Assembly: GCA_022825135.1 (NCBI GenBank)
Contig: JAJDYN010000012.1
Span: 124,001 to 188,000 of the forward strand
DNA length: 64,000 nucleotides
Direction of reading: 5' to 3'
From: Gemmatimonadota bacterium
GTDB taxonomy: Bacteria > Gemmatimonadota > Gemmatimonadetes > Longimicrobiales > Gaopeijiaceae
Program-made: the position numbers and the translations under genes
Shown here: positions 51,196 to 62,858 of the stretch, one piece after another
How the letters are laid out: each line of letters begins with the position of its first letter
How positions within the stretch are numbered: the first letter of the stretch is position 1
The notes under the pieces: model-generated
The model's database searches: none
Seen by the model: the letters and a program-made list of their open reading frames with translations, nothing else
What the model was told of the DNA's origin: nothing

Positions 51196-52475
51196 ACGCT
51201 TCTTGCCGGTCGAGAGCCGGGCGGTGCTTCGCCCGGACGACACTGCTCACGGCACTGTTGCTGGCGCCGGCAGCCCTGCGGGCCCAGCATCTGCTGGTGC
51301 CGATGGACGAGGGTCAGGATGACCACCTGAAAGCCTATGGCCTCACCTACCGGAGCCTCGAGCGGGGCGCGACGGCGGAGTGGCTGCTCAACTACCGGGA
51401 CGGCTCCTTTCTCTTGCCGGACAGGCAGGACGTTCGTCGGGAAGCGGCGTTGCGCGGCGTCAGCATCGAGCCGGTGAGCGCCGCCGACGTGGCTGCAATG
51501 CGCGCGCTGATCGCGCGCTCCAACATGGAGTCCGTGATCCTGGAGAAGGCGCCCAGCGTTGCGATCTACACGCCCGCCAACACGACACCCTGGGACGACG
51601 CCGTGACGATGGCGCTCGAGTACGCGGGCATCACCTACGACAAGGTGTGGGATCCGGAAGTCCTGAACGGGGATCTGGAGAACTACGAATGGCTCCATCT
51701 CCACCACGAGGACTTCACGGGCCAGTACTCCAAGTTCTTCATCACGTACGCGGGAGCTCCCTGGCTGCAGGAGGAGGTGGCCCGCAACCAGGAGGTGGCG
51801 ACCGCGTTCGGATATCCGCACGTGCCCGCACTCAAGAAGGCGGTTGCGAGCGTGATTCTGGATTACGTCGAAGGAGGCGGCTTCCTCTTTGCCATGTGTT
51901 CGGCAACGGAGACGCTCGGCCTGGCCCTGGCGGCCCGGGAGGCCGATATCGCGGCAGCGTTCGCCGACGGTACTCCGCCCGCTCTCGACGCTTCGGCGCA
52001 CATGCAGTGGGGCCGGGCGCTTGGGTTTCAGAACGCCGAAGTACAGCTCTCCCCGTCGGTCAACGCGTTCAGCGACATCGACGGCCATCAGGTGAACACC
52101 CCGTGGCGCGAGGAACTGGGGACGTTCACCCTCTTCGAGTTCTCGGCCAAGCTGGATCCCGTGCCGTCGATGCTGACGCAGAGCCATGAGGACGTGCTCT
52201 CCGACTTCTACGGGCTCACCACGTCCTTCCGCCTGGACCGCATCAAGCCGGGCGCCATCGTCCTGGCGCAGGAGGGCGGATGGGCCAAGTACATCCACGG
52301 AAACCGGGGCGAGGGAACCTGGACCTTCTACGGCGGGCACGACCCGGAAGACCCCGAGCACCAGATCGGCGACCCGCCCACGGATCTCTCGCTGCACGCG
52401 AATTCCGGCGGCTATCGCCTGATTCTGAACAACGTCCTGTTCCCCGCGGCTCGCAAGCAGCAGCGCAAGACCTGA
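51192..52475 (+). CDS. Exported GATase1-like protein (often labelled 'asparagine synthetase B')
   Basis: A 427-residue protein with a signal peptide (TLLTALLLAPAALRA, cleavage before Gln). The mature N-terminus (HLLVPMDEGQDDHLKAYGLT, then WLLNYRDGSFLLP) matches a family that databases often call asparagine synthetase B. Neither the N-terminal nucleophile nor the PP-loop of that enzyme is present. The central domain has LDYVEGGGFLFAMCSATETL, in which the DYxxGGGFL core is shared with the DUF4159 protein of the same cluster. Cys236 sits where a class I amidotransferase or DJ-1-type fold would hold its nucleophile. Function unknown. Confidence 0.8.
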   Translation: MNASCRSRAGRCFARTTLLTALLLAPAALRAQHLLVPMDEGQDDHLKAYGLTYRSLERGATAEWLLNYRDGSFLLPDRQDVRREAALRGVSIEPVSAADVAAMRALIARSNMESVILEKAPSVAIYTPANTTPWDDAVTMALEYAGITYDKVWDPEVLNGDLENYEWLHLHHEDFTGQYSKFFITYAGAPWLQEEVARNQEVATAFGYPHVPALKKAVASVILDYVEGGGFLFAMCSATETLGLALAAREADIAAAFADGTPPALDASAHMQWGRALGFQNAEVQLSPSVNAFSDIDGHQVNTPWREELGTFTLFEFSAKLDPVPSMLTQSHEDVLSDFYGLTTSFRLDRIKPGAIVLAQEGGWAKYIHGNRGEGTWTFYGGHDPEDPEHQIGDPPTDLSLHANSGGYRLILNNVLFPAARKQQRKT

Positions 52476-52515: not shown

Positions 52516-55116
52516 GTGACCCCCGAGCGGCCTCGTCCCCGGCCGGATCTCGTCCTCGCTCGCGAGGCGGCAGGGCGCATGCGCGAGCAGATCGCGCGGG
52601 CCGGAGGACGCGAGGTCAGCTTTCTCGCCACCGTGACCCCCGAGCGCGTCATCGTCGACCCGCGCACCGTGGCCCGGGGCAATCGGGCCGCCGTTCTTGC
52701 CGCCGCGGCCGACGCGCGCACCGGCGAGATCATGCTGCACAACCATCCCTCGGGGGTGCTGGAGCCCTCCGAAGCCGACCTCCGCGTGGCCGCCCGGCTC
52801 TACGAGCAGGGCGTCGGCAGCGCCATCGTCGACAACCTGGCGCGAGCGCTGTACGTGGTGGTGGAACCACCGCCGCCATCGTCGCTCGAACCCCTGGACA
52901 TCCGCGAACTGGAGGCGGTGGCCGCCCCGGGCGGCGCCTTGTCGCGCCTGCACGAGCGCTATGAGGACCGTCCCGGCCAGCGCGGCATGCTGGCGGAGGT
53001 GGCGCGAGGATACAACCAGGGAGGGGTGACCCTGGTGGAGGCCGGCACCGGCACCGGAAAGTCGGTCGCCTATCTGCTGCCCGCAGCCCGCTGGGCGATC
53101 CGCAACAAGGAACGCACGATCGTCTCAACCAACACCATCAACCTGCAGGAACAGCTCGTCGCCAGGGATCTTCCCCTCGTGCGCGAGCTTCTGGGAGAGG
53201 AGTTCCGCTGGGCGCTGATGAAGGGCAGGGGGAACTACATTTCCATCCGCCGCGCGCATCTGGCGGCGGAAGGCGCGGCCACCCTCTTCGGGGAGGACCG
53301 CACCCACGAGGTCAACGCGCTGCTCGACTGGATCGCCGGGACTGAGGACGGGTCACTCGCCGACCTGACGACCGCCCCGTCCCGGGAGGTATGGGAGGAA
53401 GTGCAGTCCGACTCCGATATCTGCCTGCACGCCCGCTGCCCGCACTTCCAGTCGTGCTTCTACCAGCGCTCGCGCCGGGTTGCGGCATCGGCCGACGTGC
53501 TGGTGGTGAACCACCACCTGCTCTTCTCCGACCTCTCCCTGCGCATCGTCACCGACAATTTCACCCAGTCCGCGGCGCTGCCGGCATACCGCCGGCTGAT
53601 CCTCGACGAGGCGCACAACGTCGAGGACGCCGCCACCAGCCACCTGGGTGCAAGCCTGAGCCGAAAGGGGCTGGCCGCCACTCTGACGCGCCTGGAACGC
53701 GTGGCGGGCGTGGTGCGCCGCAAGCTCACCGGCCTCCCCGCGGCGGCGGATGATGGCGTGCGGCCGGAGGGTCCCCTGGCGGGCCCCGCCGCGAAACCGC
53801 TTCTCAGCCGTCTCAAGGACAGGCTGCTCCCCTCGCTCACGCGGGCGCGGGCGGCATTCGAGGCCTTCTTCCAGACTCTCGACGAGATGGCGCCCCTGCC
53901 CGGAGGGGTGCGCGTCAGGCTCGGTTCGGAGCAGCTCCCCGAACCGATCGACCGGGCGCGCGTCCATCGGAGCTTCAGTGCGCTGCTGGACGCGCTCGAA
54001 GGGCTGGCGCGCGAAGTATCCGAGCTCTCCGTCCGCATCGAACTCACCGACGAGTGGCGCGAACCGCTGGAGGGAAGGATCCTCGATCTGCGCAGCATCG
54101 AGCGCCGTCTGACGAATGCGTCGCGGAGCCTGCGCCTCGTCCTGGATCCGGCGGAAGAGGGACAGCGATACGTTCGCTGGGTGGAGCAGAGAAGTCCCCG
54201 GCGCGGCAAACGGCGCAATCTTCACCTCGCCGCCGCGCCCATCGAGCTGGACGAACTGCTCAGAGAACAGTTGTTCGAGCGCGTTCAAACCACCGTGCTT
54301 ACCTCCGCGACCCTGACCACGCGCAATGATTTCAGCTTTCTGCGACGACGTCTGGGGCTGGCCCGCGAAACCGGGGATGGGCGCGCCCTGAGCGTCGCTG
54401 AAGCACGCATCGACTCTCCTTTCGACTTCGGTGCGCAGACCCTGCTCTGCGTCCCGTCGGATCTGCCCCGGCCATCGTTCGGAAGTGCGGCGGGGAGCGG
54501 CTCCTTCGATCGTGCCACGGCCCGCGCCGTGGCCGCGCTCGCCGACATCACCCGGGGTGGGCTGTTCGCCCTCTTCACCTCGCATCGGGCTCTGCGTGCG
54601 GTGGCAGAGGCTCTTCGGGCGGAGGGAGCGGGATCCTGGCCGCTGCTCGTGCACGGCGAGGATGACAGGTCCCGGCTCCTGGCCCGCTTTGTCGAGGCGG
54701 GCAACGCCATCCTGCTGGGCACCTCATCCTTCTGGGAGGGAGTGGACGTGCCCGGCCGCCCCCTGCGCGCGCTGCTCATCCAGAAGCTTCCGTTCAGCGT
54801 CCCCACGGATCCGGTCGTCGAGGCACGCATGGAAGCCATCGAGGCGGGGGGAGGCAATCCGTTCCAGGAGCTCATGCTGCCTCAGGCGGCGCTTCGTCTG
54901 CGCCAGGGATTCGGTCGCCTGGTGCGCTCGCGCCGGGACCGGGGCGCCGTGGTGCTTCTGGATTCGCGAATCGTCAAGTACCGCTATGGCCGCTACCTGC
55001 TCGAGTCGCTCCCCCCGGCGCCGCTCGCCCACGGGCCGTGGCGCCGCGTCGAGGAGCACCTGCGTGCGTTCTACGGCCCCCCCGCCAGGCCAGGGACTGC
55101 GCAGCGCGCGGGATAG
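52516..55116 (+). CDS. JAMM/RadC-like domain fused to DinG/XPD-type helicase
   Basis: An 866-residue fusion. Residues 1-115 carry a complete JAMM metal site: Glu33, then H-x-H-x7-S-x2-D as His75, His77, Ser85 and Asp88 (LHNHPSGVLEPSEADL), as in RadC. The rest is a superfamily 2 helicase: Walker A AGTGTGKS at 176-183, DEAH at 364-367, LTSATLTT-type motif III and C-terminal QKLPFSVPTDP and QGFGRLVRSRRDRG. Three Cys with DinG iron-sulfur spacing are present (303, 308, 314), but the first ligand is Ser243 (GRGNYISIRR). It starts 40 bases after the GATase1-like gene. An exonuclease-DinG fusion is known in Firmicutes; this domain is different. Confidence 0.88.
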   Translation: MTPERPRPRPDLVLAREAAGRMREQIARAGGREVSFLATVTPERVIVDPRTVARGNRAAVLAAAADARTGEIMLHNHPSGVLEPSEADLRVAARLYEQGVGSAIVDNLARALYVVVEPPPPSSLEPLDIRELEAVAAPGGALSRLHERYEDRPGQRGMLAEVARGYNQGGVTLVEAGTGTGKSVAYLLPAARWAIRNKERTIVSTNTINLQEQLVARDLPLVRELLGEEFRWALMKGRGNYISIRRAHLAAEGAATLFGEDRTHEVNALLDWIAGTEDGSLADLTTAPSREVWEEVQSDSDICLHARCPHFQSCFYQRSRRVAASADVLVVNHHLLFSDLSLRIVTDNFTQSAALPAYRRLILDEAHNVEDAATSHLGASLSRKGLAATLTRLERVAGVVRRKLTGLPAAADDGVRPEGPLAGPAAKPLLSRLKDRLLPSLTRARAAFEAFFQTLDEMAPLPGGVRVRLGSEQLPEPIDRARVHRSFSALLDALEGLAREVSELSVRIELTDEWREPLEGRILDLRSIERRLTNASRSLRLVLDPAEEGQRYVRWVEQRSPRRGKRRNLHLAAAPIELDELLREQLFERVQTTVLTSATLTTRNDFSFLRRRLGLARETGDGRALSVAEARIDSPFDFGAQTLLCVPSDLPRPSFGSAAGSGSFDRATARAVAALADITRGGLFALFTSHRALRAVAEALRAEGAGSWPLLVHGEDDRSRLLARFVEAGNAILLGTSSFWEGVDVPGRPLRALLIQKLPFSVPTDPVVEARMEAIEAGGGNPFQELMLPQAALRLRQGFGRLVRSRRDRGAVVLLDSRIVKYRYGRYLLESLPPAPLAHGPWRRVEEHLRAFYGPPARPGTAQRAG

Positions 55117-55551: not shown

Positions 55552-56190
55552 ATGAGCCTGAAGCATACCCCGACCAAGATCGTGTGCGTAGGAAAGAACT
55601 ACGCGCTCCACGCACAGGAGTTGGGCACCGACGTTCCCCCTGAGCCCATCATCTTCCTGAAGCCGGTCTCCTCCCTGCTGGCCGCCGGCGAGACAATCCG
55701 GATGCCTTCCTGGGCCGGGCGCGTGGACTTCGAGGGTGAGATCGCGCTGGTGGTGGGGAAGCGCGCCCGCCGGGTCGCGCGCGAGGACGCATGGGACGTG
55801 GTCGATGCCATCGTGCCGCTGAACGACGTGACCGCGCGCGATCTGCAGCGCAGGGACGGACAGTGGACCCGCGCCAAGAGCTTCGACACCTTCTGCCCGG
55901 TGGGCGAACCGGTCCCGGTGGCCGATGTGGATGTCGGGGAGCTGGAGGTGATCACGCGTGTAAACGGCGAGGTGCGCCAGCACGCCCATGTGAACACGAT
56001 GGTGTTCCCGATCCCCGAGTTGGTCCGCTTCATCACTGCCGTGATGACCCTCGAGCCGGGAGACCTGATCGCGACCGGCACGCCCGACGGCATCGGCCCG
56101 CTCGCGCCGGGCGACCGGGTCGAAGTCGAAATCCCGGGTGTGGGGACGGTGGCCAACCCGGTGGCGGTGGAGGAGGTCGATTCCGGCTGA
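55552..56190 (+). CDS. Fumarylacetoacetate hydrolase-family protein
   Basis: A 212-residue single-domain FAH-fold enzyme of the FAHD1 size class. Landmarks are KIVCVGKNYALHAQELG, PIIFLKPVSSLL, the metal-binding VDFEGEIALVVG (Glu pair plus a later Asp), VPLNDVTARDLQRRDGQW, KSFDTFCPVG and LIATGTPDGIGPLAPGD. FAHD1-type enzymes act as oxaloacetate tautomerases/decarboxylases or acylpyruvate hydrolases; aromatic degradation is an alternative. The substrate cannot be fixed. The last base of its stop is the first base of the next ATG. Confidence 0.93.
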   Translation: MSLKHTPTKIVCVGKNYALHAQELGTDVPPEPIIFLKPVSSLLAAGETIRMPSWAGRVDFEGEIALVVGKRARRVAREDAWDVVDAIVPLNDVTARDLQRRDGQWTRAKSFDTFCPVGEPVPVADVDVGELEVITRVNGEVRQHAHVNTMVFPIPELVRFITAVMTLEPGDLIATGTPDGIGPLAPGDRVEVEIPGVGTVANPVAVEEVDSG

Positions 56191-59787: not shown

Positions 59788-61467
59788 ATGCCCCTGCGGG
59801 TGCTTGCTCTGCTCGGCGTGCTGATGGCGGGGTGTGCGCGCGAAGCCACCCCTCCCGGCGGCCCTCCCGACCGGCTTCCGCCGATCGTGATCCTGAGCGA
59901 GCCGGATACCTTCTCCACCGTGGAGCCCTTCCGTTCTCCGGTAACCCTCCGCTTCAGCGAGCGCATCAGCGAGCGACCCAGCGCGGGCACCCTGGACCAA
60001 TCGGTGGTGGTGTCGCCGGCTTCGGGCGAGGTGCGCGTGTCGCACGGCCGTGAAGGACTCACGGTGCGCGCGCTGGGCGGATTCGAAGCCGGGCACATCT
60101 ACCGCGTGACGGTGCTGCCGGTCATTCAGGACATGTTCGGCAATGCCCTTCAGGAACCCTTCGAGCTGTTTTTCTCGACCGGGCCGGAGTTTACCCCCAA
60201 TGTTGTCGCGGGCTCGGTCATCGACCGCCTTACGGGCGATCCCCTTGGCGACGCGCGGGTGGACGCGTCCGTCGCCGGAAGCGCCGTGGTGCACACCGCC
60301 GTCACCGACAGTGCGGGAATCTTCGCCCTGCGCTACCTCCCGGCGGGCGACTATGTGGTGAGCGCCTACCTCGACCGCAACCGCAACGCCCAGCCGGACT
60401 TCACCGAGCCCCAGGGAAGGCGTCCGGCCCCATTGGACGGCGGTGGGGAAGCCGCCGACACCGCAATCGTGCTCGAGGTTGCCCTGCTGGCCCGGGACAC
60501 CACCTCGGCGCGGATCGCCCGCGTCACCGTCGAGGACTCCATCAGCCTCGGCGTCTCCCTCGACGACTACCTCGATCCGGACCTCCCGCTGGACGACGTG
60601 CGCGTCGTGGTCACTTCCGACAGCGTCGACGCGCCCGGGTCGCTGGCCGTCCTCCATCCGCACGAGGCGGAAGCCTATCGGAGCGCGCTGGCCGACAGCC
60701 TTGCGCGGGAACAGGCGGTCCGGGACAGCGTGGCGCAGGCGCAGGCGGATTCGGCGGCCCGGGCGGAGGCCGCCGCCGGGGATTCCACGGCAGCAGTCGA
60801 TCCCGGGGAGCTGGCCGAGCCGGCCGAGACGGAACCCGACCCGCCGCCGGCACCGGCGGCGCAGGACACGGCACAAGCCGGGGCGGCGGAGCAGGAACGC
60901 CCCACCGCCCAGCAGACATTTGTCGTCATCCTGGACGGAGTGCTGGTCCCCGAGGTGCCCTACGAGGTCGAGATATCGAACATCACCAACATCAACGGCG
61001 TGGAGGAAGGCGGGGGAACCGTCGGCTTTACCCGTCCCGCCCCGCCGCCGCCTCCCGAAGACACCACCCGCACCGAGGCGGACAGCGTTGCCACGGATAC
61101 CATCCCGGCGGCTCCCGGCGACACGCTCCCCTCCGCCGACTCGACCGCTCGCGACACCATTCCCGCGGAGGCTGCCGTCCCCGGGGAAGCGGCGCCCGGC
61201 GACACGCTGGCCGTCCCGGCCGACTCGACCGCTCGCGACACCATTCCGCCGCCTCCGGCCGACTCTGCCGGCAGGGACACGATCCCCTCGCCAGCCGCGG
61301 ACTCCGTCCGCCTCGACACGGTATCGTCACCACCCGGGGTTTCGGTGCGCCGCGACACGGTCGCGATCCTCCCGGCCGAGGACTTGCGCCGACGCGGCAG
61401 GAGGGTCTGGATGCCGCCGGCACGGAAGCGGTTCTCCCGCGACGCCCGGTCCGGCACGGTTCAATGA
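59788..61467 (+). CDS. Ig-like-domain lipoprotein with Thr/Pro-rich repeat tail
   Basis: A 559-residue surface or periplasmic lipoprotein. ATG at 59788 gives MPLRVLALLGVLMAGC, a lipobox with Cys16. GTG at 59743, overlapping the valS stop, would add 15 residues. An SbsA/Big-5-type Ig domain comes first (VILSEPDTFSTVEPFRSPVT; LTVRALGGFEAGHIYRVTVL). A carboxypeptidase-regulatory-like domain follows (VAGSVIDRLTGDPLGDARVD; ALRYLPAGDYVVSAYLDRNR). A low-complexity Asp/Ala/Thr/Pro tail with repeated STARDTIP-type units follows, and the end is Arg-rich. No enzyme motif is present. The stop overlaps selA (ATGA). Confidence 0.82.
   Translation: MPLRVLALLGVLMAGCAREATPPGGPPDRLPPIVILSEPDTFSTVEPFRSPVTLRFSERISERPSAGTLDQSVVVSPASGEVRVSHGREGLTVRALGGFEAGHIYRVTVLPVIQDMFGNALQEPFELFFSTGPEFTPNVVAGSVIDRLTGDPLGDARVDASVAGSAVVHTAVTDSAGIFALRYLPAGDYVVSAYLDRNRNAQPDFTEPQGRRPAPLDGGGEAADTAIVLEVALLARDTTSARIARVTVEDSISLGVSLDDYLDPDLPLDDVRVVVTSDSVDAPGSLAVLHPHEAEAYRSALADSLAREQAVRDSVAQAQADSAARAEAAAGDSTAAVDPGELAEPAETEPDPPPAPAAQDTAQAGAAEQERPTAQQTFVVILDGVLVPEVPYEVEISNITNINGVEEGGGTVGFTRPAPPPPPEDTTRTEADSVATDTIPAAPGDTLPSADSTARDTIPAEAAVPGEAAPGDTLAVPADSTARDTIPPPPADSAGRDTIPSPAADSVRLDTVSSPPGVSVRRDTVAILPAEDLRRRGRRVWMPPARKRFSRDARSGTVQ
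61135..61247 (+). repeat. 29-bp exact direct repeat in the lipoprotein tail
   Basis: Identical 29-base copies at 61135-61163 and 61219-61247, 84 bp (28 codons) apart, encode ADSTARDTIP-like units. Further degenerate copies (DSAGRDTIP, DSVRLDTV) follow. The exact identity suggests recent duplication or repeat exchange. Confidence 0.8.
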
Positions 61468-62858
61468 ACGATCCGCGCCGCCACCTGCCGAGCGTCGACC
61501 GGGTGCTGGCTTCCACCGCCTTCGCCACGCTGCTCGCCGAGCATCCCCGGCAGCGCATCGTGCACCATCTGCGCTCGGCGCTGGATCATGCCAGGAAGCA
61601 ACTCGCGCGCGAAACCGGCCAACCGCCGCCGGCCATCGGCGACCTCGCCGGAGAGGTCGAGCAGGCACTTGCCCTCGACGGCATCCCGTCGCTCCGCCCG
61701 GTGATCAACGCCACCGGCGTGGTGCTCCACACCAACCTGGGCCGGGCGCCCATCGCACCCGCCGCCCGGTCCGCCATGGCTCGCGCCGCGCGCGGGTACG
61801 GCAACCTGGAGTTCGACCTGGAGCGCGGGAGCCGCGGATCGCGCTACGTGCACTGCGTGCAACTCCTGAGGGAACTCACGGGGGCCGAAGCCGCGCTCGT
61901 AGTCAACAACGCCGCCGGCGCGCTGGTGCTGGGCATGAACACCCTGGCGGCGGGGAAGGAGGTCGCGGTCTCGCGGGGAGAACTGGTGGAGATCGGAGGC
62001 GGCTTCCGCATTCCCGAAATCCTGGTCCGCAGCGGGGTCCGGCTGCGCGAGGTGGGCTCCACCAACCGCACCCGCATCGCCGACTACGAGGCAGCGCTCG
62101 AAACGGGCGAAGTTGCGGCGCTGCTCAAGGTGCACCGCTCAAACTTCCGCATCGAGGGGTTCACCGAAGAGGCCGGCGTCGCCGAGCTGGCGGAGCTGGC
62201 CGACCGCCTGGCCGTCCACTTTTTCCACGACCTGGGAACCGGGCTGATGATGGATCCCGCCGCGCTCGGCCTTCCCGGGGAAACGCGGGTGGCGGACAGC
62301 CTGGCGAGCGGTGCTCACGTGGTCGGATTCTCGGGGGACAAGCTGCTGGGCGGGCCGCAGGCGGGGATCCTCGTGGGACGGAGGGAGCCGATCGCGAGGA
62401 TGCGGCAGAACCCGCTGTGCCGCTCCCTGCGCGTCGACAAGGTGACGCTGGCGGGGCTTGAGGCGACCCTGCGGCTCTACAGGGATCCCGGCCGCGCTTT
62501 GAGGGAGATACCGGCGCTGCGCATGATCGCCGCCTCTCCGGAAGAGCTGTTCGAGCGGGCCACCCGCCTCGCCGCCGCTCTGGAGGCCCGAGGCGTGGAA
62601 GCTCGCTTGAGCCGGGGCACTTCGCTGGTGGGGGGCGGAACCTGTCCGGGGGTCGTCCTCGACACGTTTGTCGTCGAGCCCGACACCGGCGCGCGGTCCG
62701 TGTCCGGCGTCGCACGGCGCCTGAGACGCGGCGATCCGCCGGTGCTCGCGCCCGTGGACAACGATCGCCTCGGCCTCGATCCCCGCACGGTCGAACCCGA
62801 AGAGGAGTCCCTGCTCGTGGAACGGGTTGTTCGCGCGTGTCTTCCGCGCGAAGATTGA
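61464..62858 (+). CDS. selA: L-seryl-tRNA(Sec) selenium transferase
   Basis: A 464-residue PLP enzyme that converts Ser-tRNA(Sec) to Sec-tRNA(Sec), implying use of selenocysteine. Landmarks are INATGVVLHTNLGRAPI, YGNLEFDLERGSRGSRYVH, VVNNAAGALVLGMNTLA and the PLP lysine in VGFSGDKLLGGPQAGI. Length and order are normal. The ATG overlaps the lipoprotein stop. SelB, SelD and the tRNA(Sec) gene were not found in the window; the 143 bases after the gene hold no tRNA-like fold that I can see. Confidence 0.95.
   Translation: MNDPRRHLPSVDRVLASTAFATLLAEHPRQRIVHHLRSALDHARKQLARETGQPPPAIGDLAGEVEQALALDGIPSLRPVINATGVVLHTNLGRAPIAPAARSAMARAARGYGNLEFDLERGSRGSRYVHCVQLLRELTGAEAALVVNNAAGALVLGMNTLAAGKEVAVSRGELVEIGGGFRIPEILVRSGVRLREVGSTNRTRIADYEAALETGEVAALLKVHRSNFRIEGFTEEAGVAELAELADRLAVHFFHDLGTGLMMDPAALGLPGETRVADSLASGAHVVGFSGDKLLGGPQAGILVGRREPIARMRQNPLCRSLRVDKVTLAGLEATLRLYRDPGRALREIPALRMIAASPEELFERATRLAAALEARGVEARLSRGTSLVGGGTCPGVVLDTFVVEPDTGARSVSGVARRLRRGDPPVLAPVDNDRLGLDPRTVEPEEESLLVERVVRACLPRED

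Follow-up and report, generated by a model that had tools for sequence, protein, structure and literature searches.

A RadC-like DinG helicase gene of a Gemmatimonadota bacterium with a conserved JAMM site and a serine at the first iron-sulfur position

In a 64,000-nucleotide stretch of DNA from a Gemmatimonadota bacterium (hereafter the window; contig JAJDYN010000012.1), we analyzed the gene at positions 52516-55116 (+), which encodes a RadC-like DinG protein. The open reading frame of 866 amino acids begins with a GTG codon, has no internal stops, and is the single match in the 3.54-Mb assembly. It comprises a RadC-type JAMM/MPN+ domain (residues ~14-118; 52555-52869, +), a linker (residues ~119-148; 52870-52959, +), and a DinG/YoaA-type superfamily 2 helicase (residues ~149-850; 52960-55065, +) with a Walker A motif at residues 175-183 and a DEAH box at 364-367. 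The Pfam model RadC (PF04002) matched residues 43-98 of the 866-residue protein with 28.0 bits (cut-off 22.1, E 2.3e-6), and the helicase part was recognized by DEAD (37.6 bits, cut-off 26), DEAD_2 (24.8, cut-off 21), and Helicase_C_2 (151.3, cut-off 25.3). The alignment confirmed K182 and S183 of Walker A as well as E365, A366, and H367 of the DEAH box, and the DinG-type helicase with MD1, Arch, and MD2 keeps its ATP-site residues. These results agree with the original prediction, made from the sequence alone, that a JAMM signature (E33, H75, H77, S85, D88) stands ahead of a Walker A/DEAH helicase of the DinG class. Among NCBIfam models, YoaA scored best with 549.5 bits, below its cut-off of 680; the DinG models PRK08074 (469.7 versus 789) and PRK11747 (405.2 versus 598) and the stand-alone RadC model (27.8 versus 180) were not reached either. 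A separate stand-alone RadC match of 139 bits lies elsewhere in the genome.

Conservation of the JAMM site was read from relatives among the matches listed. The contig loci were found partly via the pattern MLHNHPSG, which favors intact JAMM motifs. A further 25 loci were chosen manually among those listed whole-protein matches whose alignment included the N-terminus; this retrieval also contained 9 other regions, which are loss or decay loci. The added loci belong to families f2 and f3, of the same order as the window's own family f1, and to f4 and f5, of the same class. Rows for the window itself (L001 and L003), matches with E above 1e-20, and rows duplicating another over the first 250 aligned residues were left out. 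E33, H75, H77, S85, and D88 were invariant in 57 aligned rows, window included, and in 82 of 82 rows after the 25 loci had been added, a carrier set that is biased towards intact domains. The possibility raised at the outset, that these residues might not be conserved among relatives, is thus not borne out in the carriers; decayed sites occur outside this set. For the window gene and seven near relatives (28 pairs, Nei-Gojobori method), the median ratio of nonsynonymous to synonymous substitution rates was 0.10 in the JAMM domain, 0.16 in the helicase, and 0.41 in the more weakly constrained linker. Judged by these ratios, both the JAMM domain and the helicase are under selection. The whole protein found a match in 248 of the 298 genomes of the phylum, and a profile of the N-terminal domain in 276, with no match in 22. 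By hand count, 230 of the profile matches are strong (E ≤4.3e-15) and 46 are weak (1.2e-6 to 7.3e-4); the latter we take for stand-alone RadC. The hand count agrees with the whole-protein search (230 + 18 = 248). The strong matches include two genomes with a decayed site (G110 and G122), and the site was read only in part of the remainder.

An AlphaFold2 model of residues 1-150, calculated with 41 sequences, reached a mean predicted local distance difference test score (pLDDT) of 87.0 and a predicted template modelling score (pTM) of 0.73. In this model, E33 lies just ahead of strand 34-40, H75 and H77 where strand 72-76 ends, and D88 close to where helix 86-97 begins. Its top fold matches in the PDB were chains of the Chlorobium RadC crystal structure 2qlc (E 5.1e-6). 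CSN5, a Caldiarchaeum Rpn11 homologue, BubCD, and PfJAMM1 were among the best 50 of 449 matches (E ≤10), and the fold-search TM-scores of the domain were modest, at 0.4 to 0.5. A profile of 41 N-terminal domains also placed 2qlc first of six PDB hits (E ≤1), with E 5.7e-7; the next hit, a CoA transferase at E 0.004, we take for chance. With the RadC family (UPF0758, 2qlc) the window protein shares the JAMM fold and the motif HxHPSGxxxPSxxD, whereas the additional N-terminal region of stand-alone RadC, a HhH region, is missing. The full-length model (pLDDT 83.6, pTM 0.81) had as its best PDB fold match DinG with single-stranded DNA (6fwr, presumably from E. coli) and ends with a predicted helix at 842-853, a candidate for the alpha7-like C-terminal helix that closes MD2 in the RadC-like DinG subgroup. 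Taken together, alignment and model show a JAMM site that is intact and sits on a fold predicted to be of the RadC type.

Such a domain is likely a working zinc hydrolase, and its fold relatives suggest protein rather than DNA as the target. A different possibility is that it acts as a metal-dependent nuclease which trims the DNA opened by the helicase. RadC has been proposed to be a nuclease in comparative genomics, and two other DinG subgroups, ExoDinG and EndoDinG, carry N-terminal nucleases. The latter subgroups are described in a recent review (PMC11981726). As the fold supports a peptidase or isopeptidase better, we regard the nuclease as rather doubtful. The initial idea that the helicase brings along a metal-dependent hydrolase of its own, de-conjugating or nuclease-like, therefore remains reasonable in its general form, the metal-site residues being intact and under selection, while its nuclease version has the lesser support.

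The second characteristic of the protein is its iron-sulfur (Fe-S) site, which reads Ser-Cys-Cys-Cys. The three cysteines C303, C308, and C314 (53422-53457, +) have the spacing C-x4-C-x5-C, and the place of the first cysteine is taken by Ser243, encoded by TCC at 53242-53244 (+), as originally noted. Position 243 was Ser in 58, Cys in 22, and a gap in 2 of the 82 JAMM-carrier rows, and Ser in 4, Cys in 12, and a gap in 2 of 18 rows from the loss search. The residue follows family membership: all 16 rows of the window's own family have Ser, as do 12 of the 13 rows of f2 and f3 (one gap), while 25 of the 26 rows of f4 and f5 have Cys (one gap). The 45 contig rows without a family code include 34 with Ser, 9 with Cys (one of them the Riflebacteria locus L077), and 2 with a gap. 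C303, C308, and C314 were never replaced and are missing only in truncated or gapped rows. Wherever the position is covered, the window's order has Ser (28 of 28 rows) and two other families have Cys (25 of 25 rows). Ser243 is accordingly not a local lesion, and a simply defective Fe-S set is not supported.

A quick tree of the helicase part, built from 82 of 100 rows and carrying a long-branch warning for L077, L113, and L114, placed the phylum's 29 Cys rows on one branch with a support of 100. The Ser/Cys label changes twice on this tree when L077 is counted, which is the sole outgroup and a long branch. Over 95 relatives with a residue at position 243, the Ser codons were TCG (27), TCC (26), TCT (5), and AGC (3), and the Cys codons TGC (24) and TGT (10); the three AGC rows (L049, L028, L136) are scattered through the Ser part of the tree. 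The use of both kinds of Ser codon fits a serine that is maintained, although separate Cys-to-Ser changes could produce the same mixture. With one of four ligands not being Cys, the protein might also be regarded as a damaged or cluster-free helicase that has lost its Fe-S cluster. In that case the other cysteines should have been lost too, but these are never replaced, Ser is the only replacement seen at position 243, and its 58 TCN and 3 AGC codons fit a maintained residue, which makes loss of the cluster improbable. Fe-S variants in which one Cys is exchanged for His, Ser, or Asp have been reported and may bind a cluster, for which experimental proof is needed (PMC11981726). The description of the Fe-S set as incomplete was literally correct, the first Cys being Ser, while a mere defect was not supported, given the order-wide Ser and the reported single-residue variants.

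That the fusion is an unusual architecture was not supported. It is already in print: the RadC-like DinG is one of ten DinG subgroups in a 2025 review, with Desulfuromonas soudanensis as an example (Cheng 2025, PMC11981726, section 3.8). The window protein shares with this subgroup the RadC-like domain at the N-terminus, whose metal site has one E, two H, and one D, the helicase with MD1, FeS, Arch, and MD2, and a genome without HolC. The definition allows four or three Cys in the FeS domain, so that the three-Cys arrangement falls within it (PMC11981726). We consider membership in the published subgroup close to certain. Differences are the Ser for the first Fe-S Cys and the Gemmatimonadota host; the main text of the review (Table S1 aside) mentions neither Gemmatimonadota nor the SCCC pattern (PMC11981726). 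With E. coli YoaA and DinG, the helicase core is shared, both types of model score, and 6fwr is the best fold match, whereas the window protein stays below both cut-offs, carries the extra JAMM domain and Ser243, and has no HolC match in its genome (PF04364, no match in the 93% complete assembly; 2 of 14 controls match). A YoaA with a HolC partner was rejected for this genome on the missing HolC match and the YoaA score.

We favor, with a probability of about 0.6, the reading that this member of the published subgroup is a DNA helicase of the Fe-S type to which a zinc hydrolase acting on protein at DNA is attached. The helicase would translocate on single-stranded DNA as DinG does, and its Fe-S domain would still hold a cluster by three Cys and a Ser oxygen, or with an open site. 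The JAMM domain would be a zinc-binding hydrolase of peptide or isopeptide bonds in proteins encountered by the helicase on DNA. Since the helicase persists without the JAMM domain, the hydrolytic step would be an accessory function.

Several observations weigh against this reading. No strong N-terminal match was found in 18 of the 248 helicase-bearing genomes; in six of them (G084, G131, G178, G230, G253, G267) a contig end truncates the locus to a fragment, and in the other 12 the domain is lost inside contigs. The 12 genomes belong to genera g51 (3), g43 (4), g54 (3), g6 (1), and g4 (1) and retain the helicase with C303, C308, and C314. In two genomes of genus g11 the region is alignable and the site is decayed, the five JAMM places reading S-I-H-S-E in G122 (L110) and R-L-Q-S-E in G110 (L115). 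A Fusobacterium vincentii protein (L188, 2974-5442), with 29% identity across 95% of the length, also has an alignable N-terminal region; it reads S-R-T-S-E, is without E33, H75, H77, and D88, and is joined to a four-Cys DinG-type helicase. Pfam RadC was not detected in it. Domain loss and decayed sites indicate that catalysis is dispensable in some lineages. In addition, no research on RadC-like DinG has been done so far according to the review, and E. coli radC mutants are normally sensitive to DNA damage (PMC11981726). The carrier alignment and the predicted fold are what the favored reading draws on. We know of no proven peptidase activity of RadC itself.

The same losses and decays would fit an N-terminal domain that is mainly a structural or a DNA- or protein-binding module, with a metal site that is structural where it is kept: G110, G122, and the Fusobacterium protein lack most metal residues yet keep an alignable region, and in 12 genomes the helicase is intact although the whole domain is gone. 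The serine at position 85 does not ligate the metal in JAMM sites. However, five residues including Ser85 are invariant in the 82 carriers of our biased set, which is more than a fold should need, and we consider this module unlikely, if still worth bearing in mind.

Relatives without the JAMM domain at the same locus had been named in advance as a sign of an assembly or gene-calling artefact, and such relatives do exist in some lineages. Downstream of the window gene lies an FAA-hydrolase family gene (55552-56190, +), and upstream a gene of unassigned family (51201-52475, +; start chosen by eye). The former is present at 9 of 9 loci examined (7 of the 12 losses and both decays), and the latter is also kept at four of the losses and both decays, 6 of 9 in total. 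The retained flanking genes show that loss took place at the same locus, on two sides for four genomes and on the downstream side for a further three. The label "JAMM present" changes four times on the 82-row helicase tree, which amounts to about four events for losses and decays together, and the losses are lineage-specific. For the window an artefact is rejected as having next to no probability: the 230 of 298 phylum genomes with a strong N-terminal match, open frames of at least 800 codons in most of the matches listed (a few are shorter), and purifying selection over both parts among near relatives speak against it.

Other observations were made in this survey. The Fusobacterium vincentii record is called a plasmid yet measures 2.1 Mb. 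In G070 (L113/L162), a relative of the helicase has an open frame of ~280 codons upstream of the match that is unlike the JAMM domain; ~165 of these codons lie past the end of the upstream gene, and the stretch is possibly a replacement domain. The remaining 50 of the 298 phylum genomes had no match to the 866-residue protein. PF13307, run on 22 further genomes, matched two (G010 above and G113 below the cut-off) and none of the tested genomes of f7 (7), f8 (1), f9 (2), and f11 (4). Parts of the phylum may be without DinG-type helicases.

The neighborhood of the gene is conserved. The upstream gene is found on the same strand at 40 of 46 contig loci (L033-L078, among the matches listed) and the FAA hydrolase at 35 of the same 46, and the misses include contig-end loci and two loci of other phyla. 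The GTG start lies 40 bases past the stop of the upstream gene, and the two genes may be co-transcribed. The upstream protein of ~420 amino acids is better conserved than the helicase (identity of 58-98% at 40 of the 46 loci); it has no Pfam or NCBIfam match and is a conserved uncharacterised family. Four loci on contigs titled Gammaproteobacteria (L034, L037, L038, L039) encode proteins 91-92% identical to that of the window with the same neighbors, and these labels are probably wrong.

The gene is apparently a stable chromosomal gene outside any island and vertically inherited, and given the conserved neighborhood a mobile or defence gene was not supported. Nine PADLOC families matched (six typeIV_DinG, one PprDinG, two PDC-S28), all via the helicase part from residue 137 onwards. 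Viral contigs gave partial matches to the N-terminal profile at 16 loci, confined to query residues between 42 and 147. The plasmid collection yielded 324 records, all below 60% identity and 40 with at least 80% query coverage. Among the eight records listed, four reach the size of a chromosome (2.1 to 4.9 Mb), and one carries the annotation yoaA. A recent relocation of the stand-alone RadC into the helicase was likewise not supported, as the stand-alone match is still in the genome and the strong N-terminal match is so widespread in the phylum. With regard to SOS control, two matches to the LexA DNA-binding domain were found in the genome, a weak test, as this family also matches archaeal controls. 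Further along the window, 61464-62858 (+) encodes SelA, the selenocysteine synthase (Pfam, 427.7 bits), and the host organism may make selenoproteins.

A more far-reaching possibility is that the protein unites in a single chain two functions that in humans fall to separate proteins, FANCJ and SPRTN, of which SPRTN is not a JAMM protein. FANCJ, an XPD-class Fe-S helicase, is described as unfolding a crosslinked protein that the metalloprotease SPRTN then cuts (PMC12279946). By analogy, the helicase would move along single-stranded DNA until it meets a covalently trapped or conjugated protein, unfold it, and feed it to its own JAMM metallopeptidase, with a Ser-ligated 4Fe-4S cluster in the window's order. 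The likeness is one of function in DNA-protein crosslink repair, as portrayed there, and we regard this version as a long shot. If it were true, the protein would give bacteria a self-contained means of clearing DNA-protein crosslinks or conjugates bound to DNA.

Overall, this architecture had been catalogued in print without laboratory tests, and our analysis adds the JAMM invariance and selection, the order-wide Ser243, the losses and decays, and the conserved neighborhood. A JAMM site that is invariant in the aligned carriers and decayed or absent elsewhere provides natural controls for the role of the domain, and the Ser/Cys split between families provides a natural pair for the question of a Ser-ligated cluster in a helicase. 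If the JAMM domain of the favored helicase-hydrolase does cut proteins at DNA, bacteria would have, in one chain, an equivalent of a human repair pathway that takes two proteins.
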